The notes under the pieces are model-generated. The model was not told the DNA's origin and did no database searches. It saw only the letters and a list, made by a program, of their open reading frames with translations. From IMG/VR virus record IMGVR_UViG_3300042350_003212, positions 1 through 52,148 of that record: 52,148 bases of DNA. One strand, written 5' to 3'. Of the stretch, positions 5,220-45,722 are shown in pieces; the stretch's first letter is position 1, and the number at the start of each line of letters is the position of its first letter. Source of the DNA: a virus. The translations under genes were made by a program, and so were the position numbers.

Positions 5220-5450
5220 TCAGTCCCAGCGGGACGGTGGACTGTAGTCCTTGCTCACCGTCTTGCTGCATTGCGGGCATTCCGCCTCCACATCATCGCA
5301 ACCGCGCTCGTCAACCGTGACATCTGATTCAGTCCACTCGTGATCGCAGTCACTGCAGAAGAAGTCCATGTCTACTTCAATGTCGTTGTACCCCGGGAGG
5401 TCTCTTTCATAGCAACCCGGTGGTAAGTTGAATCCTGATCCAAAGCCCAT
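5220..5450 (-). CDS. Zinc-ribbon protein, 76 aa
   Basis: After an N-terminal stretch MGFGSGFNLPPGCYERDLPG there are two CxxC pairs: CSDC near residues 32-35 and CPQC near 58-61, separated by about 22 residues. This is the layout of a zinc ribbon. ATG 5450 follows CAAGGAGAGAACA; the box is at 5483-5499. DNA or protein binding is possible but not shown. Confidence 0.7.
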   Translation of the reverse strand: MGFGSGFNLPPGCYERDLPGYNDIEVDMDFFCSDCDHEWTESDVTVDERGCDDVEAECPQCSKTVSKDYSPPSRWD

Positions 5451-5501
5451 TGTTCTCTCCTTGTGTCGTCGTGTATGAGATCATTATAGGTTCCGGAGAA
5501 C

Positions 5502-5651
5502 CTATTCGGCCCACCGCTTGCCTCGGCAGGCTTGCCGTGCGGCGATCCGCTTCTTGTTGGGGACTTGAGTCGCCCGCAGGATATTGCGGTCGGCAAACGC
5601 CTGGCGGTCGCCTTCGGTCCATCGTGTATTTGGTTTGGTCGCTGTTTTCAT
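5502..5651 (-). CDS. Basic 49-residue protein, leaderless
   Basis: Starts MKTATKPNTRWTEGDRQAFA and is rich in Arg and Lys, ending CRGKRWAE. ATG 5651 starts six bases after TATAAT of the box at 5658-5674, with GATCTC between. It is one of the cleanest examples of the leaderless arrangement. Nucleic-acid binding is likely from composition only. Confidence 0.65.
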   Translation of the reverse strand: MKTATKPNTRWTEGDRQAFADRNILRATQVPNKKRIAARQACRGKRWAE

Positions 5652-5674
5652 GAGATCATTATACATTCCTGAGT

Positions 5675-5911
5675 TTACTGCGCCTCGATGTCCTGGCGCA
5701 GTACCCGCAACTTCATTGCGAAGATGAGGACATCGTCATCTTCTTTCAGCTGGTCGGTCGCTTTCTCAAGCTCGAGCGCAAACTCATCGCGGAAGATGAG
5801 TTCATACTCAAGACAGTAATTGGCCTCGTAGATCGCGTTGAACGTGTCATGGAGGTCAAGTTGGCCTTCGATGCGCTCGATGACATCGAGCTTGGTCTCT
5901 TTCGTGTTCAT
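5675..5911 (-). CDS. Acidic helical protein, 78 aa
   Basis: Starts MNTKETKLDVIERIEGQLDL. Start 5911 is chosen because GCGAAAGGAATCCC precedes it; an upstream in-frame ATG lies in the leader. Many Glu/Asp and Leu residues suggest a helical bundle. Box at 5940-5956. Unknown role. Confidence 0.65.
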   Translation of the reverse strand: MNTKETKLDVIERIEGQLDLHDTFNAIYEANYCLEYELIFRDEFALELEKATDQLKEDDDVLIFAMKLRVLRQDIEAQ

Positions 5912-5956
5912 GGGATTCCTTTCGCCGTGGTGTGATCTCATCTTACTTTCCAGAGT

Positions 5957-6076
5957 TTACCACCCTGTCCTTGCGTACCAGTAGTGGTAGTGGCGGGCGC
6001 TCTTGATCCCGCGTCGGATTCCGGCTTTCTTGGTCCAGAAGATTCCGATCTGCACTGCACCGATGAATCGTTTCAT
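5957..6076 (-). CDS. Basic 39-residue protein, member of a three-gene family
   Basis: Starts MKRFIGAVQIGIFWTKKAGI. Together with 6377-6469 and 6519-6638 it forms a family defined by a hydrophobic start, then GIR.G.[KR][ST].[RT][HN][FY]..W. ATG 6076 follows CGAAAGGACCCAAA. Box at 6108-6124. Small, basic and aromatic, so membrane or nucleic-acid association is possible. Confidence 0.65.
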   Translation of the reverse strand: MKRFIGAVQIGIFWTKKAGIRRGIKSARHYHYWYARTGW

Positions 6077-6117
6077 TTTGGGTCCTTTCGTCGTGGTGTA
6101 CGAGATCATTATACATT

Positions 6118-6351
6118 CCTCAGAACGCTGAGGACGCCACAGCGGAGGTAGCTAACCTCACCGCAAGTTCCCCGTCGGGCGTTGCGAACTTGAACCGTAT
6201 GTAAGAGGAGGGCGGATGTCGTGAGAGGAGGACGGATACCGTGGTCCCGGGAACCGCGTAGAGCCTTATCTTCTGAACAGAGCCTTATCATTCAGTGACG
6301 TCTCGTTCGCAACCTTGCGGCTGCTATGATGTCCTCAACGTGCTGAGGCAT
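6118..6351 (-). ncRNA. R1: large structured RNA, copy 1
   Basis: No credible reading frame. Transcription should start near 6351 from the box at 6358-6374. The 5' strand (6348-6323) pairs with the 3' strand (6143-6118) over 26 positions with two mismatches, so the two ends close on each other. Inside are a GCAGCC-GCAA-GGTTGC hairpin (6324-6309), two GATAAGGCTCT repeats, a hairpin with palindromic loop CCCGGG (6251-6246), two ATCCGYCCTCCTCT repeats and a GAGGT-TAGCT-ACCTC hairpin (6159-6145). The same elements with changed but still complementary stems recur in R2. Family unknown to me. Confidence 0.75.
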
Positions 6352-6357
6352 GTACTC

Positions 6358-6374
6358 ATTTTACTTTCCGGAGT
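6358..6374 (-). promoter_or_regulatory. 17-nt box driving R1
   Basis: ACTCCGGAAAGTAAAAT facing left. The predicted first base is 6351, three bases before the closing helix of R1. Confidence 0.65.
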
Positions 6375-6376
6375 TT

Positions 6377-6469
6377 CTACCACTTATGGAAGTTAGTGGC
6401 GGTGCGGAATCCGTGACGGATTCCATACGCACGGGAGCATGCGATGAACATTCTCAGTCTCAGAATCAT
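6377..6469 (-). CDS. 30-residue basic peptide, three-gene family
   Basis: Starts MILRLRMFIACSRAYGIRHG and ends RTATNFHKW. It is the shortest and most diverged member of the family at 5957 and 6519, keeping GIR.G, RTAT and the final W. ATG 6469 follows ACGACGAAAGGACCAGTA; box at 6500-6516. The tyrosine-rich tail of its paralogues is missing. Confidence 0.55.
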   Translation of the reverse strand: MILRLRMFIACSRAYGIRHGFRTATNFHKW

Positions 6470-6518
6470 TACTGGTCCTTTCGTCGTGGTGATGAGTTAA
6501 TTATACTTTCCGGAGTTT

Positions 6519-6638
6519 CTACCACCGGGTCCTTGGAGCCCAGTAGTAGAAGTGGCGGCCCGTTTTGACGCCGGCGCGGATGCCGTTGGTACGTGCCACC
6601 CCAATCCCAATCTTGATTGCGCGGATGATTGCTTTCAT
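6519..6638 (-). CDS. Basic 39-residue protein, three-gene family
   Basis: Starts MKAIIRAIKIGIGVARTNGI and ends YYWAPRTRW. Aligns without gaps to the 39-residue protein at 5957-6076. ATG 6638 follows ACGACGAAGGGACACGAA; box at 6669-6685. The N-terminal half is amphipathic and could lie on a membrane. Confidence 0.65.
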   Translation of the reverse strand: MKAIIRAIKIGIGVARTNGIRAGVKTGRHFYYWAPRTRW

Positions 6639-6698
6639 TTCGTGTCCCTTCGTCGTGGTGATGAGTACATTTTACTTTCCCGAGATTACGTGCCGCCC

Positions 6699-6857
6699 TT
6701 ATCGGGCGGCCACGCGGACCTCGAGATCCTGCCGGACTTGGGGAGCCTGCGCCACCCAGAACTTGTTGCAGTTTTCACGTGAACCTGAGAACCTGATCAA
6801 CTTGAACTTGCGATCATAAACCTCGTGGGCTCGGGTTGATGGCTTGGTCGTTTTCAT
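6699..6857 (-). CDS. 52-residue protein, paralogue of 955-1104
   Basis: Starts MKTTKPSTRAHEVYDRKFKL. Shares KPSTRAHEVYD, a C-N-x-[FY]-W block and QAPQ.RQ with the protein at 955. ATG 6857 follows ACGACGAAAGGACGAAAG; box at 6888-6904 gives a predicted 24-base leader. Basic, unknown. Confidence 0.7.
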   Translation of the reverse strand: MKTTKPSTRAHEVYDRKFKLIRFSGSRENCNKFWVAQAPQVRQDLEVRVAAR

Positions 6858-6905
6858 CTTTCGTCCTTTCGTCGTAGGTATGAGATCATTATACTTTCCT
6901 GAGTT

Positions 6906-7022
6906 TTAGTTGGATTGCTCCCACAGGTGAAGATCGGCGTTCTCTGGCGCTGGACAGGGTACGTCGTAATCCATCCAATCTTGATACGTGAATCCGCATT
7001 TACAGGTTTGATCTGAATCCAT
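6906..7022 (-). CDS. 38-residue acidic Cys-containing peptide
   Basis: Starts MDSDQTCKCGFTYQDWMDYD and ends HLWEQSN. CxC and one further Cys may bind a metal. Start 7022 follows ACGACGAAAGGACTGAAT; the longer reading to 7100 passes through the box at 7057-7073 and is rejected. Confidence 0.65.
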   Translation of the reverse strand: MDSDQTCKCGFTYQDWMDYDVPCPAPENADLHLWEQSN

Positions 7023-7075
7023 ATTCAGTCCTTTCGTCGTTTGAACTTGTGAGATCATTATACTTTCCTGAGTTT

Positions 7076-7282
7076 TTACATCCCCATCTTCTCGTACCAC
7101 TCACTCAGGATCTTGACCTTTTCTTCCACCTCGTTCAAGATCATTCCGATCTCTTCGTTCGTGAATTTTCCTTCTTGAACCAGTTCACGAACTAACTCGC
7201 CGTAAACTTGATTCACGTCAAGATCTGATCCTTCCATGATCTCGCAGATCTCGCTCGCTTTATCGTCTATTCTTTCGTCCAT
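7076..7282 (-). CDS. Hypothetical protein, 68 aa, paralogue of 3373-3597
   Basis: Starts MDERIDDKASEICEIMEGSD and matches the 3373 protein along its whole length, lacking only that protein's C-terminal KRAFPM. ATG 7282 follows CGACGAAGGGAAAATA. Box at 7312-7328. Acidic, helical, unknown. Confidence 0.7.
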   Translation of the reverse strand: MDERIDDKASEICEIMEGSDLDVNQVYGELVRELVQEGKFTNEEIGMILNEVEEKVKILSEWYEKMGM

Positions 7283-7328
7283 TATTTTCCCTTCGTCGTG
7301 GTTACGAGATCATTATACGATCCCGAGT

Positions 7329-7397
7329 TTTAGTACTGGGTGGATAACTCAGACGCCGCCCAGTGCGACGAGGTTAGAGCAGTGTTATCCAACTGCG
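7329..7397 (-). ncRNA. R3: small structured RNA
   Basis: Sits between two boxes with no usable reading frame. From the box at 7404-7420 the first base would be 7397, and hairpin GCAGT-TGGATAAC-ACTGC begins one base later (7396-7379). A second hairpin, CTGGG...CCCAG (7363-7336), carries GTTATCCA, exactly complementary to the first loop over eight bases. A kissing-loop or pseudoknot fold is implied. Confidence 0.6.
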
Positions 7398-7403
7398 ATG
7401 ATC

Positions 7404-7420
7404 ATTATAAGTTCCCGAGT
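7404..7420 (-). promoter_or_regulatory. 17-nt box driving R3
   Basis: ACTCGGGAACTTATAAT facing left; predicted first base 7397. Confidence 0.6.
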
Positions 7421-7588
7421 TCAGTCAGCTAGTCGCATGGCCGCTTCCATTGCGTCTTCGTGGTCAGCGCCGCAGTCTACCGCCGCTTCATACTGGGCCT
7501 GCCGCCTAGGCGTTAGGGCCTCAAACTCAAGGCGGGCCTTTCGGACCTTCGGGTTACTTGCCTCTCCAAATGCTGTGATCGTCGTCAT
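7421..7588 (-). CDS. Hypothetical protein, 55 aa, leaderless
   Basis: Starts MTTITAFGEASNPKVRKARL; charged and helical. ATG 7588 is six bases from TAAAGT of the box at 7595-7611. Its stop abuts the box that drives R3. No family recognised. Confidence 0.65.
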   Translation of the reverse strand: MTTITAFGEASNPKVRKARLEFEALTPRRQAQYEAAVDCGADHEDAMEAAMRLAD

Positions 7589-7616
7589 GCCACTACTTTA
7601 CATTCCTGAGTTCAGC

Positions 7617-7792
7617 GACGGCGCGTGTCAGCCGGCGACCATTCCGGCCGATCACGCGTCTCGCTTGCGTGCTAGCGCGCACGACGAAGAACGCGCTAGC
7701 AACTGCCCGTCAACAGTTCTTGGGCCTATGGCAGGCCGGGCCGCTCGAAAGCGTGCCCGTCATGCCTTTGCGGCCCTATGGCAGGCCGGGAC
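7617..7792 (-). other. Non-coding 3' region with repeat and hairpin
   Basis: Between the stop at 7793 and the box at 7595-7611 there is no good reading frame. It holds a 16-base direct repeat (7725-7740 and 7775-7790, cctatggcaggccggg on the plus strand), two copies of TGCCCGTCA, and a perfect hairpin with arms TGCTAGCGCG / CGCGCTAGCA at about 7669-7700. It probably forms a long structured 3' untranslated region. Confidence 0.45.
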
Positions 7793-7924
7793 TTATTCCC
7801 AGTCGCCATCATCATCGTCATACGACGGCTCGGCGTAGTAGTCCGCATAGCGGTCTTCCTGCGCCTTGATGATGCTTGCCTCTTCGTTCCAGTGAGCATA
7901 GTCACTGATGCTTGGGTTGGTCAT
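7793..7924 (-). CDS. 43-residue very acidic protein
   Basis: Starts MTNPSISDYAHWNEEASIIK and ends with a run of Asp (SYDDDDGDWE). ATG 7924 follows CGAAGGGACCAAGCA; box at 7958-7974. The charge resembles DNA-mimic proteins, but that is speculation. It is followed by an unusually long structured 3' region. Confidence 0.65.
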   Translation of the reverse strand: MTNPSISDYAHWNEEASIIKAQEDRYADYYAEPSYDDDDGDWE

Positions 7925-7991
7925 TGCTTGGTCCCTTCGTTGTTCGTTGATGAGATCATTATAGGATCCTGAGATCCCGTCAGCCGAAGCC

Positions 7992-8225
7992 TTACGACTG
8001 GGACCCGTAGGCCCAGCCGTAAGTTGCTTTGTAGAAGTCTTCCATCCAGGCCAGTGCGCCCTTCTTGGTGTTCTTCGGGCACCCGTATTCCTGTGCCACT
8101 CTGATCAATGAGACCCCCCGTACATATTTCATGCCCGTTTTGATCTCGAGGCGTAGCCCGCCGATCAGTAGGCACATTCGGTAGTGCTCGATGCCTTCCT
8201 GCGTGTCAATTGCCATTATTGTCAT
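7992..8225 (-). CDS. Hypothetical protein, 77 aa
   Basis: Starts MTIMAIDTQEGIEHYRMCLL. The middle (GVSLIRVAQEYGCPKNTKKG) could be a small helix-turn-helix-like segment. ATG 8225 follows CGAAAGGACAAGCA; box at 8258-8274. Moderately basic. No firm assignment. Confidence 0.65.
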   Translation of the reverse strand: MTIMAIDTQEGIEHYRMCLLIGGLRLEIKTGMKYVRGVSLIRVAQEYGCPKNTKKGALAWMEDFYKATYGWAYGSQS

Positions 8226-8275
8226 TGCTTGTCCTTTCGTCGTAGGTTGATGAGATTATTTTACAATCCTGAGAA

Positions 8276-8521
8276 TTAGCAGACCCAGTTGACCGCAATT
8301 ACTGATGACTTGAAGTCATAGTCATGACTAATTTTAGCCGAGACCATGTTCCAAAAGTCTTCTGCTTGGACTTCAGGTCCATCAACAATTTCAATCTCGG
8401 GACCAAACCAACCCGCAAAAGCTGCAGCTGGCTCGAAGTCAAATCCGACAATTTTTCCGTACTTTACTCGAGCGACAAAGCTTCCAGGAATATCTACTCG
8501 TGTCATTTCATCTTGGTCCAT
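8276..8521 (-). CDS. Hypothetical protein, 81 aa
   Basis: Starts MDQDEMTRVDIPGSFVARVK; alternating strands, acidic, ends SVIAVNWVC. ATG 8521 follows CGAAAGGACAACA; box at 8549-8565. Unknown. Confidence 0.65.
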   Translation of the reverse strand: MDQDEMTRVDIPGSFVARVKYGKIVGFDFEPAAAFAGWFGPEIEIVDGPEVQAEDFWNMVSAKISHDYDFKSSVIAVNWVC

Positions 8522-8560
8522 TGTTGTCCTTTCGTCGTTGGTGAGTACATTATACGTTCC

Positions 8561-8728
8561 CTAGATCGAGATCCAGAGAACGTAGCCAGAGTCATTGGTC
8601 TTGTTGTGGTGTGCGCATGCTTCCACCATCTCACGAGCGCGCTCGAGCGTGAGGCCAGTTCGGTAGACTTCGCTACCACCCGCATCGCCGATCATGACCG
8701 TGTATGTCTGTTCCTGTGTGGCTTTCAT
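8561..8728 (-). CDS. Hypothetical protein, 55 aa
   Basis: Starts MKATQEQTYTVMIGDAGGSE, then TGLTLERAREMVEACAHHN. The strand-helix-strand layout resembles small phage proteins with a TLE.A....A pattern. Start 8728 follows CGAAGGGACATCAC; the longer reading to 8830 crosses the box at 8757-8773. Confidence 0.65.
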   Translation of the reverse strand: MKATQEQTYTVMIGDAGGSEVYRTGLTLERAREMVEACAHHNKTNDSGYVLWISI

Positions 8729-8774
8729 GTGATGTCCCTTCGTCGTTGTTGAGCTCATTGTACAGTCCTGAGTT

Positions 8775-8969
8775 TTACACTTCGGCTGGGCGAACCTCAA
8801 GAATCTGTGAGTCCAGTCCCCAAAAGCCACTACCGACTTCTGTGGTCATTACAAAGCCTGGCTGACAGCCGTGGCCGACAATTGCATGCTTTGCTGTTAT
8901 GACACCTATCTTAACTCGTGTGCTTCCAAATGGTGAGTACACGACCGTGTCCCCTACTTTATAGTCCAT
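8775..8969 (-). CDS. Small SH3/KOW-like protein, paralogue of 4311-4496
   Basis: 64 residues, starts MDYKVGDTVVYSPFGSTRVK. See the 4311 gene for shared positions; here the loop after the first strand is two residues longer. ATG 8969 follows CGAAGGGACAAAACGC; box at 9002-9018. Confidence 0.7.
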   Translation of the reverse strand: MDYKVGDTVVYSPFGSTRVKIGVITAKHAIVGHGCQPGFVMTTEVGSGFWGLDSQILEVRPAEV

Positions 8970-9016
8970 GCGTTTTGTCCCTTCGTCGTTGGTGTGAGAT
9001 CATTATATGTTCCTCA

Positions 9017-9242
9017 GTTCGCCGGGAAGCAACATAGCTGGAGGAGCTACCTCCCTACCCTTCGCCCGTCGGCGGCCTTGAACGATACAACGTGTGCGAG
9101 AAGTGGACGGATAACTAAGAGGAGGACGGATGGTCAATCCCGGGATTGATCAGAGCCTTATCGTTATGCAGAGCCTTAACTTGCAGGGACGGGTCGTTCG
9201 CAACCAGGTAGTTGCTATGTTGTTTCCCGGCGTACCGGGTAT
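9017..9242 (-). ncRNA. R2: large structured RNA, copy 2
   Basis: Second copy of R1. From the box at 9249-9265 the first base is about 9242. The ends pair: 9231-9214 with 9038-9021, 18 positions with one mismatch. Inside are GCAAC-TACCTG-GTTGC (9215-9200), two AAGGCTCTG blocks, TCAAT-CCCGGG-ATTGA (loop 9144-9139), two CCGTCC blocks and GGAGG-TAGCT-CCTCC (9054-9040). Sequences of stems differ from R1 while pairing and loops are kept, which is what selection on RNA structure produces. Confidence 0.75.
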
Positions 9243-9248
9243 GCTATC

Positions 9249-9265
9249 ATTCTACATTCCGTAGT
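9249..9265 (-). promoter_or_regulatory. 17-nt box driving R2
   Basis: ACTACGGAATGTAGAAT facing left, directly downstream of R4. Confidence 0.65.
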
Positions 9266-9340
9266 TTGATGAGCGCCCTGGAACTTTTACCCTGGGCCAG
9301 GGCCTTCCATAATCGGAAGGTGTGGGTCGTTCCAACCCGC
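9266..9340 (-). ncRNA. R4: small structured RNA
   Basis: Lies between two boxes and has no frame. Three hairpins in order: GGGT-TGGAACG-ACCC (9338-9324), CCTTCC-GATTAT-GGAAGG (9320-9303) and GCCCTGG...CCAGGGC (9303-9275). The first loop (TGGAAC) is complementary to GTTCCA at the base of the last, similar in plan to R3. The opening GGTTGGAACGACCC also resembles GGTTGCGAACGACCC inside R2. Confidence 0.55.
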
Positions 9341-9344
9341 GAGA

Positions 9345-9467
9345 CTATTTTACTTTCCTGAGATTCAGGTAGATCATTGTGAGAACCGCAAGGCTCGCTC
9401 CAATTATCATGAAGCTTACGCTATCAATGAACTCTCCTGAGATAACAATGTCTTGAGCTGCTAACAC
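9345..9467 (-). CDS. 40-residue membrane peptide
   Basis: GTG 9467 follows CGAAAGGACACAAA. The product MLAAQDIVISGEFIDSVSFM continues with a hydrophobic segment (IIGASLAVLTMIYL) and basic tail LRKVK. One membrane span is likely. The last five codons and the stop are formed by the box at 9347-9363, which drives R4. A longer reading to 9533 crosses the gene's own box (9495-9511). Confidence 0.6.
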   Translation of the reverse strand: MLAAQDIVISGEFIDSVSFMIIGASLAVLTMIYLNLRKVK

Positions 9468-9514
9468 TTTGTGTCCTTTCGTCGTGATGAGATCATTATA
9501 CATTCCTGAGTTTG

Positions 9515-9655
9515 CTACTCCCAGGTTATCCACCCTTCAGGTGTCACGTAGGTTGGAAGGCCCATCTCCTTCAGGTCTTCCCAAGTGTAGCTGCCGCCTG
9601 ACACTTTGTTGATGTGATTCACGTAGCCAATGTTGGCGAGTGCTTCGTCTGTCAT
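9515..9655 (-). CDS. Hypothetical protein, 46 aa
   Basis: Starts MTDEALANIGYVNHINKVSG and ends VTPEGWITWE. ATG 9655 follows CATCGTGGTC-side leader GAAAGGACAGCA, and the box is at 9691-9707. Acidic and compact; unknown. Confidence 0.65.
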   Translation of the reverse strand: MTDEALANIGYVNHINKVSGGSYTWEDLKEMGLPTYVTPEGWITWE

Positions 9656-9691
9656 TGCTGTCCTTTCATCGTGGTCGGTTGTACGAGACCA

Positions 9692-9883
9692 TTATAAGTT
9701 CCGGAGTTTGCGCTTCAACTCAGGAGAGACTTCATCTGTGATGAATGTCCCGATCTCGACAACAGTGTCGCTTTCGCCTGCGCGCTCGCGATCCGCAAGC
9801 CAGTCGGTGGCTGCTTGCTTGAGAGCAACCACGAGGCTGTAGTGCTCCGCATTGAACGTGACTTCAACTGTCTGTAGTTTCAT
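9692..9883 (-). CDS. Hypothetical protein, 63 aa
   Basis: Starts MKLQTVEVTFNAEHYSLVVA; strand-helix-strand character. ATG 9883 follows ACGGAAGGACACAC; box at 9911-9927. The C-terminus (LKRKLRNL) is basic and its last codons enter the next box. Confidence 0.65.
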   Translation of the reverse strand: MKLQTVEVTFNAEHYSLVVALKQAATDWLADRERAGESDTVVEIGTFITDEVSPELKRKLRNL

Positions 9884-9927
9884 GTGTGTCCTTCCGTCGT
9901 GTGTTGAATCATTTTACGTTCCCGAGA

Positions 9928-10154
9928 ACAGAGACTTAGCGAGATGGTTCAGACGCCCCTTTCGGGATTGAGCCTTAGGCAGTCCGTGTGGCCACACGCC
10001 ACCTCGCATATCTCCGTTCCTCACAGGTGGGAGGACGAGTGTCGGCCTAGTGGTCGCCATGCCACTTTGGTTAGTAAAGCCCCCTGCAGGAGGAATACCG
10101 CTCACTCATGACCCGTCCGCGCTGTGCGGCTAGGCTTGCCCTCGCCACCTGTGC
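9928..10154 (-). ncRNA. R5: probable structured RNA (possible ORF inside)
   Basis: From the box at 10161-10177 to the box at 9911-9927. It holds CACAGGTGG pairing with CCACCTGTG about 100 bases later, the 12-base palindrome GTGTGGCCACAC, and a GGCTCA...CCC-GAAA-GGG...TGAACC hairpin. A 63-codon frame from GTG 10105 to 9914 exists, but its start lacks the AAAGGAC-type site and the peptide is Pro/Gly-rich and unlike its neighbours. I favour RNA, without certainty. Confidence 0.45.
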
Positions 10155-10160
10155 GAGATC

Positions 10161-10177
10161 ATTTTACATTCCCGAGT
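10161..10177 (-). promoter_or_regulatory. 17-nt box driving R5
   Basis: ACTCGGGAATGTAAAAT facing left; predicted first base 10154. Confidence 0.6.
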
Positions 10178-10461
10178 TAGTCCCAGATCCCTGGGTGACC
10201 TTCCTCGCGGATCGGTTCAATGTCGCACTCGGCGAGCAGACTTTCGGCCGTTGCGCCTTCGCCGCCATACCACGTGCAGAACCCGTCATTGTCCCACTCG
10301 TCGAGCCTGACCGTCACGACTGGCCATCCGCCACCCGGGCCTTCAGCCTGGTCAATTCTTACCCATGCCGATGGGCAAAGCTTTCGCAGGGCCTCAAGGG
10401 AATGTGTGAGTGTTGGGTAGTCATCGCTAAATGCGACATCCACTTCGTATGTAAGTTTCAT
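10177..10461 (-). CDS. Hypothetical protein, 94 aa
   Basis: Starts MKLTYEVDVAFSDDYPTLTH; mixed alpha/beta, acidic, with WPVVTVRLDEWDNDGF near residues 46-61. ATG 10461 follows ACGGAAGGAAGAAA; box at 10488-10504. No family recognised. Confidence 0.65.
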   Translation of the reverse strand: MKLTYEVDVAFSDDYPTLTHSLEALRKLCPSAWVRIDQAEGPGGGWPVVTVRLDEWDNDGFCTWYGGEGATAESLLAECDIEPIREEGHPGIWD

Positions 10462-10504
10462 TTTCTTCCTTCCGTCGTTGTGAGATCATTTTACAATCCC
10501 GAGT

Positions 10505-10650
10505 AAAATTTGGAAGGCCGCTACTCATACTTGCGTGCTTGGCAGGGACCAGCCGGTGTCCGGCCAGTATGCTCTTGTGCTTGATGTGTGCTTTGCTTAG
10601 CAGGGATTACCCTGTACCTTCCTGGTCGGTGTTACCCGACCAATCCTTGT
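10505..10650 (-). ncRNA. R6: structured RNA
   Basis: No frame. First base about 10650 from the box at 10657-10673. Order of helices on the RNA: TGGTCGG-GTAACA-CCGACCA (10642-10623), then GGAAGG/CCTTCC (10622-10617 with 10517-10512) enclosing CAGGG-TAAT-CCCTG (10614-10601), and CATACT/AGTATG (10571-10566 with 10531-10526) enclosing a GCCGG-ACA-CCGGC hairpin. The nested plan is coherent. No known family recognised. Confidence 0.6.
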
Positions 10651-10654
10651 GAGA

Positions 10655-11023
10655 CTATTTTACAGTCCCGAGTTCTTGGACTTGCCACGGACCTTCGCCC
10701 TTCGCAATGCTGTCGCGGACCATGAATCCGTATGTCTGGACACGGTTGTCCATTGGCTTGCCAAATTCCTTTTCAGCGCCGTTGCACTTATAGCCAGGCA
10801 GCCAACCATTGACGCACGTCCCGTGCAGTGTTGCTGTTACCCAATACGCATTCTCGAGGTCAGTCTCGTCCCCGCCCAATGTCGTGCAGCGTGCCTTGTA
10901 CACGCCGGCTGGTACAAGCACTTCGTAGTACCAAGAGGCAGTCTCGCCTGCCGACTTGTGGTACTTCGTTTCTTCTTTGACAGTGAATGTAAGCACTTGA
11001 TGTCCTTTCGTTGTTTCGTTCAT
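10655..11023 (-). CDS. Hypothetical protein, 122 aa (or 113 from GTG)
   Basis: Two starts are plausible: ATG 11023, six bases from TAAGAT of the box at 11030-11046 (leaderless), or in-frame GTG 10996 after CGAAAGGACATCAA. The protein has strands around residues 10-60 and three Cys; the middle (YEVLVPAGVYKARC, then LENAYWVTATLHG) is beta-rich. The final codons GTVK-stop are formed by the box that drives R6. Confidence 0.7.
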   Translation of the reverse strand: MNETTKGHQVLTFTVKEETKYHKSAGETASWYYEVLVPAGVYKARCTTLGGDETDLENAYWVTATLHGTCVNGWLPGYKCNGAEKEFGKPMDNRVQTYGFMVRDSIAKGEGPWQVQELGTVK

Positions 11024-45516: not shown

Positions 45517-45722
45517 CAAGCTTTCTAAATGACACACGAGCAGATGACATCATCTTCGCCGTACTCTTAGAGAAAGGATTCATTGATAGTGACGGCGGAA
45601 AAGTTGAACGTCAGCGCGTTACAAATTCTAAGCGCTACCTTAGGGGTGTTCGTCCGCCGCTCGGAGGTGACGGCGGACAGCATCACCCCATCTCCGAAAG
45701 CTTGGGCGCAGTTAGCCAGTGA
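45480..45722 (+). other. Open frame without a start codon, possible frameshift extension
   Basis: In the -1 frame relative to the 45319 gene, 81 codons are open to TGA 45722 with no ATG, GTG or TTG near their beginning. The sequence (TSFLNDTRADDIIFAVLLEK, then GFIDSDGGKVERQRV) looks coding. Entry could be by slippage on AAAAGAAAAAG at 45500-45512, which is not a perfect heptamer. Confidence 0.4.

Follow-up and report, generated by a model that had tools for sequence, protein, structure and literature searches.

A duplicated, structured non-coding RNA of environmental actinophages with candidate self-association loops

The phi29 pRNA, a phage RNA of 100-250 nt that binds the portal and is needed for DNA packaging, forms multimers through loop-loop pairing, and its loops are complementary to each other, not palindromic. 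Self-assembling natural RNAs are few, and the known phage examples, GOLLD and ROOL, are very large and without an assigned function; they form homo-oligomers that are held together in part by kissing loops with covarying pairs (PMC12286853). In retroviruses, palindromic loops and GACG tetraloops are dimer linkages, and the kissing dimer of MoMuSV SL2 involves only two base pairs (PMC516450, PMC7357161).

Here, we describe two RNA copies, R1 and R2, in the IMG/VR record IMGVR_UViG_3300042350_003212 of an uncultured virus (52,148 nt; this whole stretch is the window below). Like GOLLD and ROOL, the R1/R2 family is an orphan structured phage RNA; however, GOLLD and ROOL measure about 600-800 nt or more and are often neighbours of tRNA genes, whereas the R1/R2 unit is about 230 nt and no tRNA genes occur within the fetched flanks of the RNA. 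A member of GOLLD or ROOL would match their Rfam models and measure at least about 600 nt; the family does neither. The kissing loops of the R1/R2 family are candidates recognized by sequence. The family resembles the retroviral dimer linkage, with its palindromic DIS loop and gammaretrovirus GACG tetraloops, in having both loop types in one RNA: a palindromic apical loop and a GACG hairpin are present by sequence, the stem of the palindrome being unclear in three members of group B (see below). The retroviral linkage is part of a packaged genome leader, whereas R1/R2 is a short phage non-coding RNA, and no homology is claimed. Unlike phi29 pRNA, R1/R2 comes from another type of phage and lies within an apparently early small-gene array.

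Copies, strand and relatives of the RNA

Sequence comparison confirms R1 and R2 as divergent copies of one minus-strand non-coding RNA. A self-search of the record returned two places only, R2 and positions 6106-6376 on the same strand (70% identity over 268 bases, E 6e-16), and a covariance model run on the record matched R1 and R2 strongly and the rest at noise level, which bears out the first-pass annotation of R2 as a second RNA copy 2.9 kb from R1. The RNAs of the family are about 200-240 nt long; R2, whose ends were placed from helix and promoter-like boxes, has roughly 230 bases.

9012-9242, minus strand: R2 RNA, whole unit (5' end near 9242, 3' end near 9012)
6118-6348, minus strand: R1 RNA, whole unit

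The RNA had been quoted on the plus strand, a reading that we reject. The helices examined contain 27 G.U pairs and 3 A.C mismatches when read on the minus strand, counts that a plus-strand reading would swap, so the RNA strand is the minus strand, as the promoter-like box upstream also indicates; single-sequence folding offered no choice of strand (z -2.2 and -5.1 for minus, -4.0 and -2.3 for plus). The same 27:3 count argues against a DNA-level element, such as a single-strand origin or a packaging or recombination site, whose hairpins would form in the DNA itself. Palindromes and hairpins inside a non-coding gap would suit such an element, but the upstream promoter-like box and the copies on opposite strands in contig G009 would not, and we consider it extremely unlikely. 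Duplication itself, initially regarded as unusual, is recurrent: IMG/VR 3300044732_003033 and 3300036770_005499 also have two RNA copies per phage, on opposite strands in the latter.

Relatives, for which a look into metagenomic phage contigs had been proposed, were found in IMG/VR by exact-pattern scans, in contigs that may be fragments. They amount to 12 distinct family members including R1 and R2, with near-identical copies set aside, and come from uncultured phages, in three diverged groups and about eight lineages.

Group A: R1, R2, L022/L037, L019, L038
Group B: L028, L021, L012/L015, L031
Group C: L008, L020/L040/L041, L025

Group C was excluded from model building and scores 43-65 bits (E 1e-10 to 1e-17). 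Most homologues were recovered via UAAGGC or repeat motifs; one IMG/VR scan that did not require UAAGGC returned no member without UAAGGC elements. Inspection led us to discard pattern matches that lack the architecture, among them L004-L007, L043-L048, L086 and most of L049-L080, and a pattern scan of genome_contigs gave only such stretches (L081-L085). The family is unrelated to any catalogued RNA family; in Rfam 15, at gathering and permissive thresholds, no family matches R1/R2 or the group B and C members. In INPHARED (50,697 phage records), R1, R2 and members of groups B and C gave by blastn either nothing or weak matches of short length, as did one group B member in plasmids; among 296 genomes of the Streptomyces phylum, the model returned one short match (L118) without the motifs.

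Secondary structure and covariation

The family is a structured non-coding RNA selected at the RNA level, its helices showing compensatory change with G.U pairs allowed. The main helices of the two copies are as follows.

9215-9232 and 9020-9037, minus strand: 5' and 3' strands of the R2 closing helix P1
9200-9215, minus strand: R2 hairpin P2', GCAAC-UACCUG-GUUGC, whose loop pairs with 9056-9060 (pseudoknot)
9056-9060, minus strand: R2 pseudoknot 3' strand, GGGUA
9194-9199, minus strand: 5' strand of the R2 inner helix P3b, GAACGA (partner UCGUUC, 9080-9085)
9040-9054, minus strand: R2 P5 hairpin, GGAGG-UAGCU-CCUCC
6309-6324, minus strand: R1 hairpin P2', GCAGC-CGCAAG-GUUGC, whose loop pairs with 6162-6167 (pseudoknot)
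6145-6159, minus strand: R1 P5 hairpin, GAGGU-UAGCU-ACCUC

In an alignment of nine RNAs (A2) with a six-helix structure including the pseudoknot, 94.4% of cells are paired, against 77.7% in shuffled and 40-46% in slid controls, the latter comparison favouring the structure because it was derived from the same sequences. Double changes occur at 21 of 32 pairs, the covariation score is 0.563 vs 0.239, and 0 of 500 shuffles reach the observed values. A covariance-model-guided alignment (A4) misplaces the helices of group C, so this group was compared by hand. Pairing in the hand alignment was 60/63 (P1a) and 61/63 (P1b) for the closing helix, 45/45 for P2', 33/36 for P3b, 38/39 over 13 RNAs, group C included, for the GACG hairpin and 35/36 for the pentaloop hairpin P5. 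For the pseudoknot between the P2' loop and the strand 3' of the GACG hairpin it was 44/45, or 59/60 with group C. When 3' strands were swapped among the RNAs, at most 14 of 5,000 trials matched these values. P5 occurs in two of the three groups, no counterpart being seen in group C in the hand comparison.

The three helix pairs named in the first-pass annotation are present and covary between R1 and R2: CGUUGAG/CUCAGCG versus CGCCGGG/CCCGGCG in the closing helix, GCAGCC/GGUUGC versus GCAAC/GUUGC in the P2' stem, and GAGGU/ACCUC versus GGAGG/CCUCC in P5 around UAGCU. A selected RNA structure in two diverged copies is strongly supported by this covariation, which grew stronger, not weaker, as further homologues were added, the step at which it had been expected to fade if spurious. 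That annotation was sound on the selected, duplicated structure and mistaken on strand and on the rarity of duplication; the informative parts, namely the pseudoknot, the hairpin with its invariant GACG tetraloop and the loop that holds the palindrome, had escaped it. GGUUGC can pair either upstream (P2') or downstream (P3a, e.g. GUUGCGAAC/GUUCGCAAC in R1) and, since both pairings are plausible in several homologues, a conformational switch via GGUUGC is possible.

Palindromic loop, GACG tetraloop and repeated elements

Between the pair of UAAGGC elements and the pair of CCGUCC elements stands a hairpin whose loop holds a 6-nt palindrome, and a GACG tetraloop hairpin follows.

9171-9180 and 9153-9162, minus strand: first and second GNUAAGGCUC elements of R2
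9134-9149, minus strand: R2 hairpin with palindromic CCCGGG loop
9122-9131, minus strand: first UCCGYCCUC repeat of R2
9103-9112, minus strand: second repeat of R2, UCCGUCCAC
9064-9073, minus strand: R2 GACG tetraloop hairpin, GCC-GACG-GGC
6280-6289 and 6261-6270, minus strand: first and second GAUAAGGCUC elements of R1
6243-6255, minus strand: R1 hairpin GGU-UCCCGGG-ACC with palindromic loop
6228-6237, minus strand: first repeat of R1, UCCGUCCUC
6208-6217, minus strand: second repeat of R1, UCCGCCCUC
6171-6179, minus strand: R1 GACG tetraloop hairpin (the full stem, CCC-GACG-GGG, extends to 6170)

The GNUAAGGCUC element is present in all members. A reading of the GAUAAGGCUC elements as simple GA/UC-closed hairpins does not hold as a general rule: the A has become U in R2 and C in L028 with the partner unchanged.

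Six palindrome sequences occur among the members, and each retains self-complementarity: CCCGGG (R1, R2, L022), CCGCGG (L038), CCUAGG (L028), GCUAGC (L008, L020), ACUAGU (L019) and UCUAGA (L025 and all of group B but L028). The strict form, stem-U-palindrome-stem, is found in four lineages, with shuffle probabilities of 0.0031 (R1/L022), 0.0026 (L038), 0.0042 (L028) and 0.0009 (L020/L008) in a test defined only after sequence inspection. R2, L019 and L025 have looser palindromic loops, and L021, L012 and L031 of group B have the UCUAGA palindrome without a clear stem. The palindromes differ between the two copies in the other two-copy phages (L019/L038 and L020/L025), so no cross-pairing is expected there, whereas R1 and R2 have CCCGGG in common and could cross-pair. 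The GACG loop is invariant over six kinds of stem (CCC/GGG, GCC/GGC, GUC/GAC, UCC/GGA, GGG/CCC and GGC/GCC).

Retention of the palindrome, together with letter-for-letter retention of GACG, would be best explained, we infer, by self-association of the RNA. The main rival is an internal contact. GACG is fully complementary to the CGUC of the UCCGUCC repeats, and, while either repeat can differ between members, none lacks CGUC altogether, so the tetraloop may instead pair within a monomeric trans-acting RNA, as a second pseudoknot, with the palindromic loop an ordinary capped hairpin or protein site. This monomer reading, which gives no account of a six-base palindrome that changes its letters and yet stays a palindrome, appears to us unlikely, though it deserves real weight.

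Genomic setting and possible function

Both copies lie in an array of small minus-strand genes (5.4-10.7 kb), many with a repeated box, a leader and an ATG. The box is written AACTCMGGAAnGTATAATGA or AAACTMCGGAAnGTAnAATGA, the latter being found just upstream of the RNAs on the minus strand, and the leader ACGACGAAAGGACA stands between box and ATG of the array genes. At least 17 promoter-like boxes with this common leader precede very small genes at 5400-10700 (minus strand), and the array looks like an expanding early-gene cassette array. One box lies ahead of each RNA and another directly behind it for the next gene.

9244-9267, minus strand: promoter-like box upstream of R2, AAACTACGGAATGTAGAATGATAG, recognized from the repeated box
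8998-9019, minus strand: promoter-like box immediately behind R2, serving the next gene
6355-6376, minus strand: promoter-like box upstream of R1

A sigma-70 two-hexamer scan did not detect the boxes, including that of R2, so their assignment as promoters rests on the TATAAT-like hexamer and on repetition. On this basis, independently transcribed units are the best reading of R1 and R2. The position of the RNA just ahead of a gene, and the likeness by eye of the downstream proteins of L104 and L099, might instead suggest a cis-acting leader or attenuator of the following gene. However, group A has a separate promoter-like box between RNA and next gene, and the genes downstream differ in most homologues, those of R1, R2, L019, L038, L028 and L102 looking unrelated by eye; this alternative is very unlikely.

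In L102, L104 and L098 (group B) and L099 and L100 (group C), the start codon lies a few bases past a -10-like box; this closeness suggests that the mRNAs of these adjoining genes are leaderless. This bears on a further alternative, an antisense sponge that would control translation through its two C-rich repeats, by pairing with the Shine-Dalgarno regions of mRNAs from phage or host. The repeats are tandem, C-rich and single-stranded, and the window phage offers AGGAC, the complement of GUCCU, in its repeated leader GAAAGGACA, where such pairing is possible. As a shared function it is unlikely because groups B and C still keep the repeats although the genes that follow the RNA there seem to have no leader, and the conserved core CCGUCCUC exceeds an anti-Shine-Dalgarno in length; overall, we judge the sponge improbable.

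Two other stretches of the array fold strongly. A box-flanked 231-nt unit without a convincing gene (9926-10156, minus strand; mononucleotide-shuffle z -3.7) contains UAAGGCUC, CGUCCUCC and GACGGG in an order unlike that of R1/R2, with no covariance-model match and no match among phage records. The other (7612-7800, minus strand; z -4.3) has a tandem TGCCCGTCA...GGCCTATGGCAGGCCGGG repeat.

Of 14 RNA-bearing contigs, 11 encode WhiB, an actinobacterial family, and 11 encode a CobS/MoxR-like ATPase (phrog_16448), which marks the phages as actinophages. In all three phage groups (contigs G000-G017), the ATPase gene usually has an RNA copy at a distance of 3-11 kb. The primase of the window aligns over 66% of its length, at 84.6% identity, with the primase of DSL-LC01, an Actinomycetia phage found in Dishui Lake (PMC10611076), and the two phages have many genes in common, in similar order. 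DSL-LC01 has an AAA ATPase gene at a comparable place but gave no RNA match, so proximity of phrog_16448 may be general synteny. The covariance model found no match in DSL-LC01 and three Microbacterium phages, an empty answer that alone shows little. The size of this phage RNA and its candidate intermolecular loops would suit a packaging-motor RNA working like phi29 pRNA; the genome and gene order, however, are those of large tailed actinophages, this nearest named relative gave no match to the RNA, and palindromic loops by themselves would give dimers, not a ring, which makes such a motor RNA barely credible.

A second, unrelated non-coding element is common to the window (45590-45720, minus strand) and DSL-LC01 (L113:4195-4290). 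It has CCTAAGGTAGCG at 45633-45644 and a hairpin at 45652-45678, whose stem differs between the two phages with pairing kept and whose loop exposes CACCUCC, as in the 16S anti-Shine-Dalgarno. Its CCUAAGGUAGCG resembles a stretch conserved in 23S rRNA, a likeness that may be due to chance.

Our preferred reading, to which we give about even credence, is a trans-acting actinophage RNA whose molecules associate with one another by kissing loops and present candidate host-factor sites. Kissing of palindromic loops would join two RNA molecules, possibly helped by GACG-GACG or GACG-CGUC contacts, into a homodimer or larger homo-oligomer. The paired sites (two GNUAAGGCUC and two UCCGYCCUC) would act in trans as host-factor binding sites, four of each in a dimer since each RNA has two of each, and during infection the RNA would serve as a multivalent scaffold or decoy, a role that we infer from motif conservation only. 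The wider idea of a novel class of small phage RNAs that pair sequence-specifically into homodimers or build larger assemblies of RNA alone, with a palindromic address per copy, as arrayed decoys against an actinobacterial host factor, is tentative, and our confidence in it falls somewhat short of even. If it is true, copies with different palindromes in some phages would assemble separately.

With R1/R2, environmental actinophages gain a conserved RNA family that is in no catalogue. An RNA of 230 nt whose loop changes yet always stays self-complementary would be cheap to make and assay, and such an RNA would open to direct test the question of why phages produce self-assembling RNAs.
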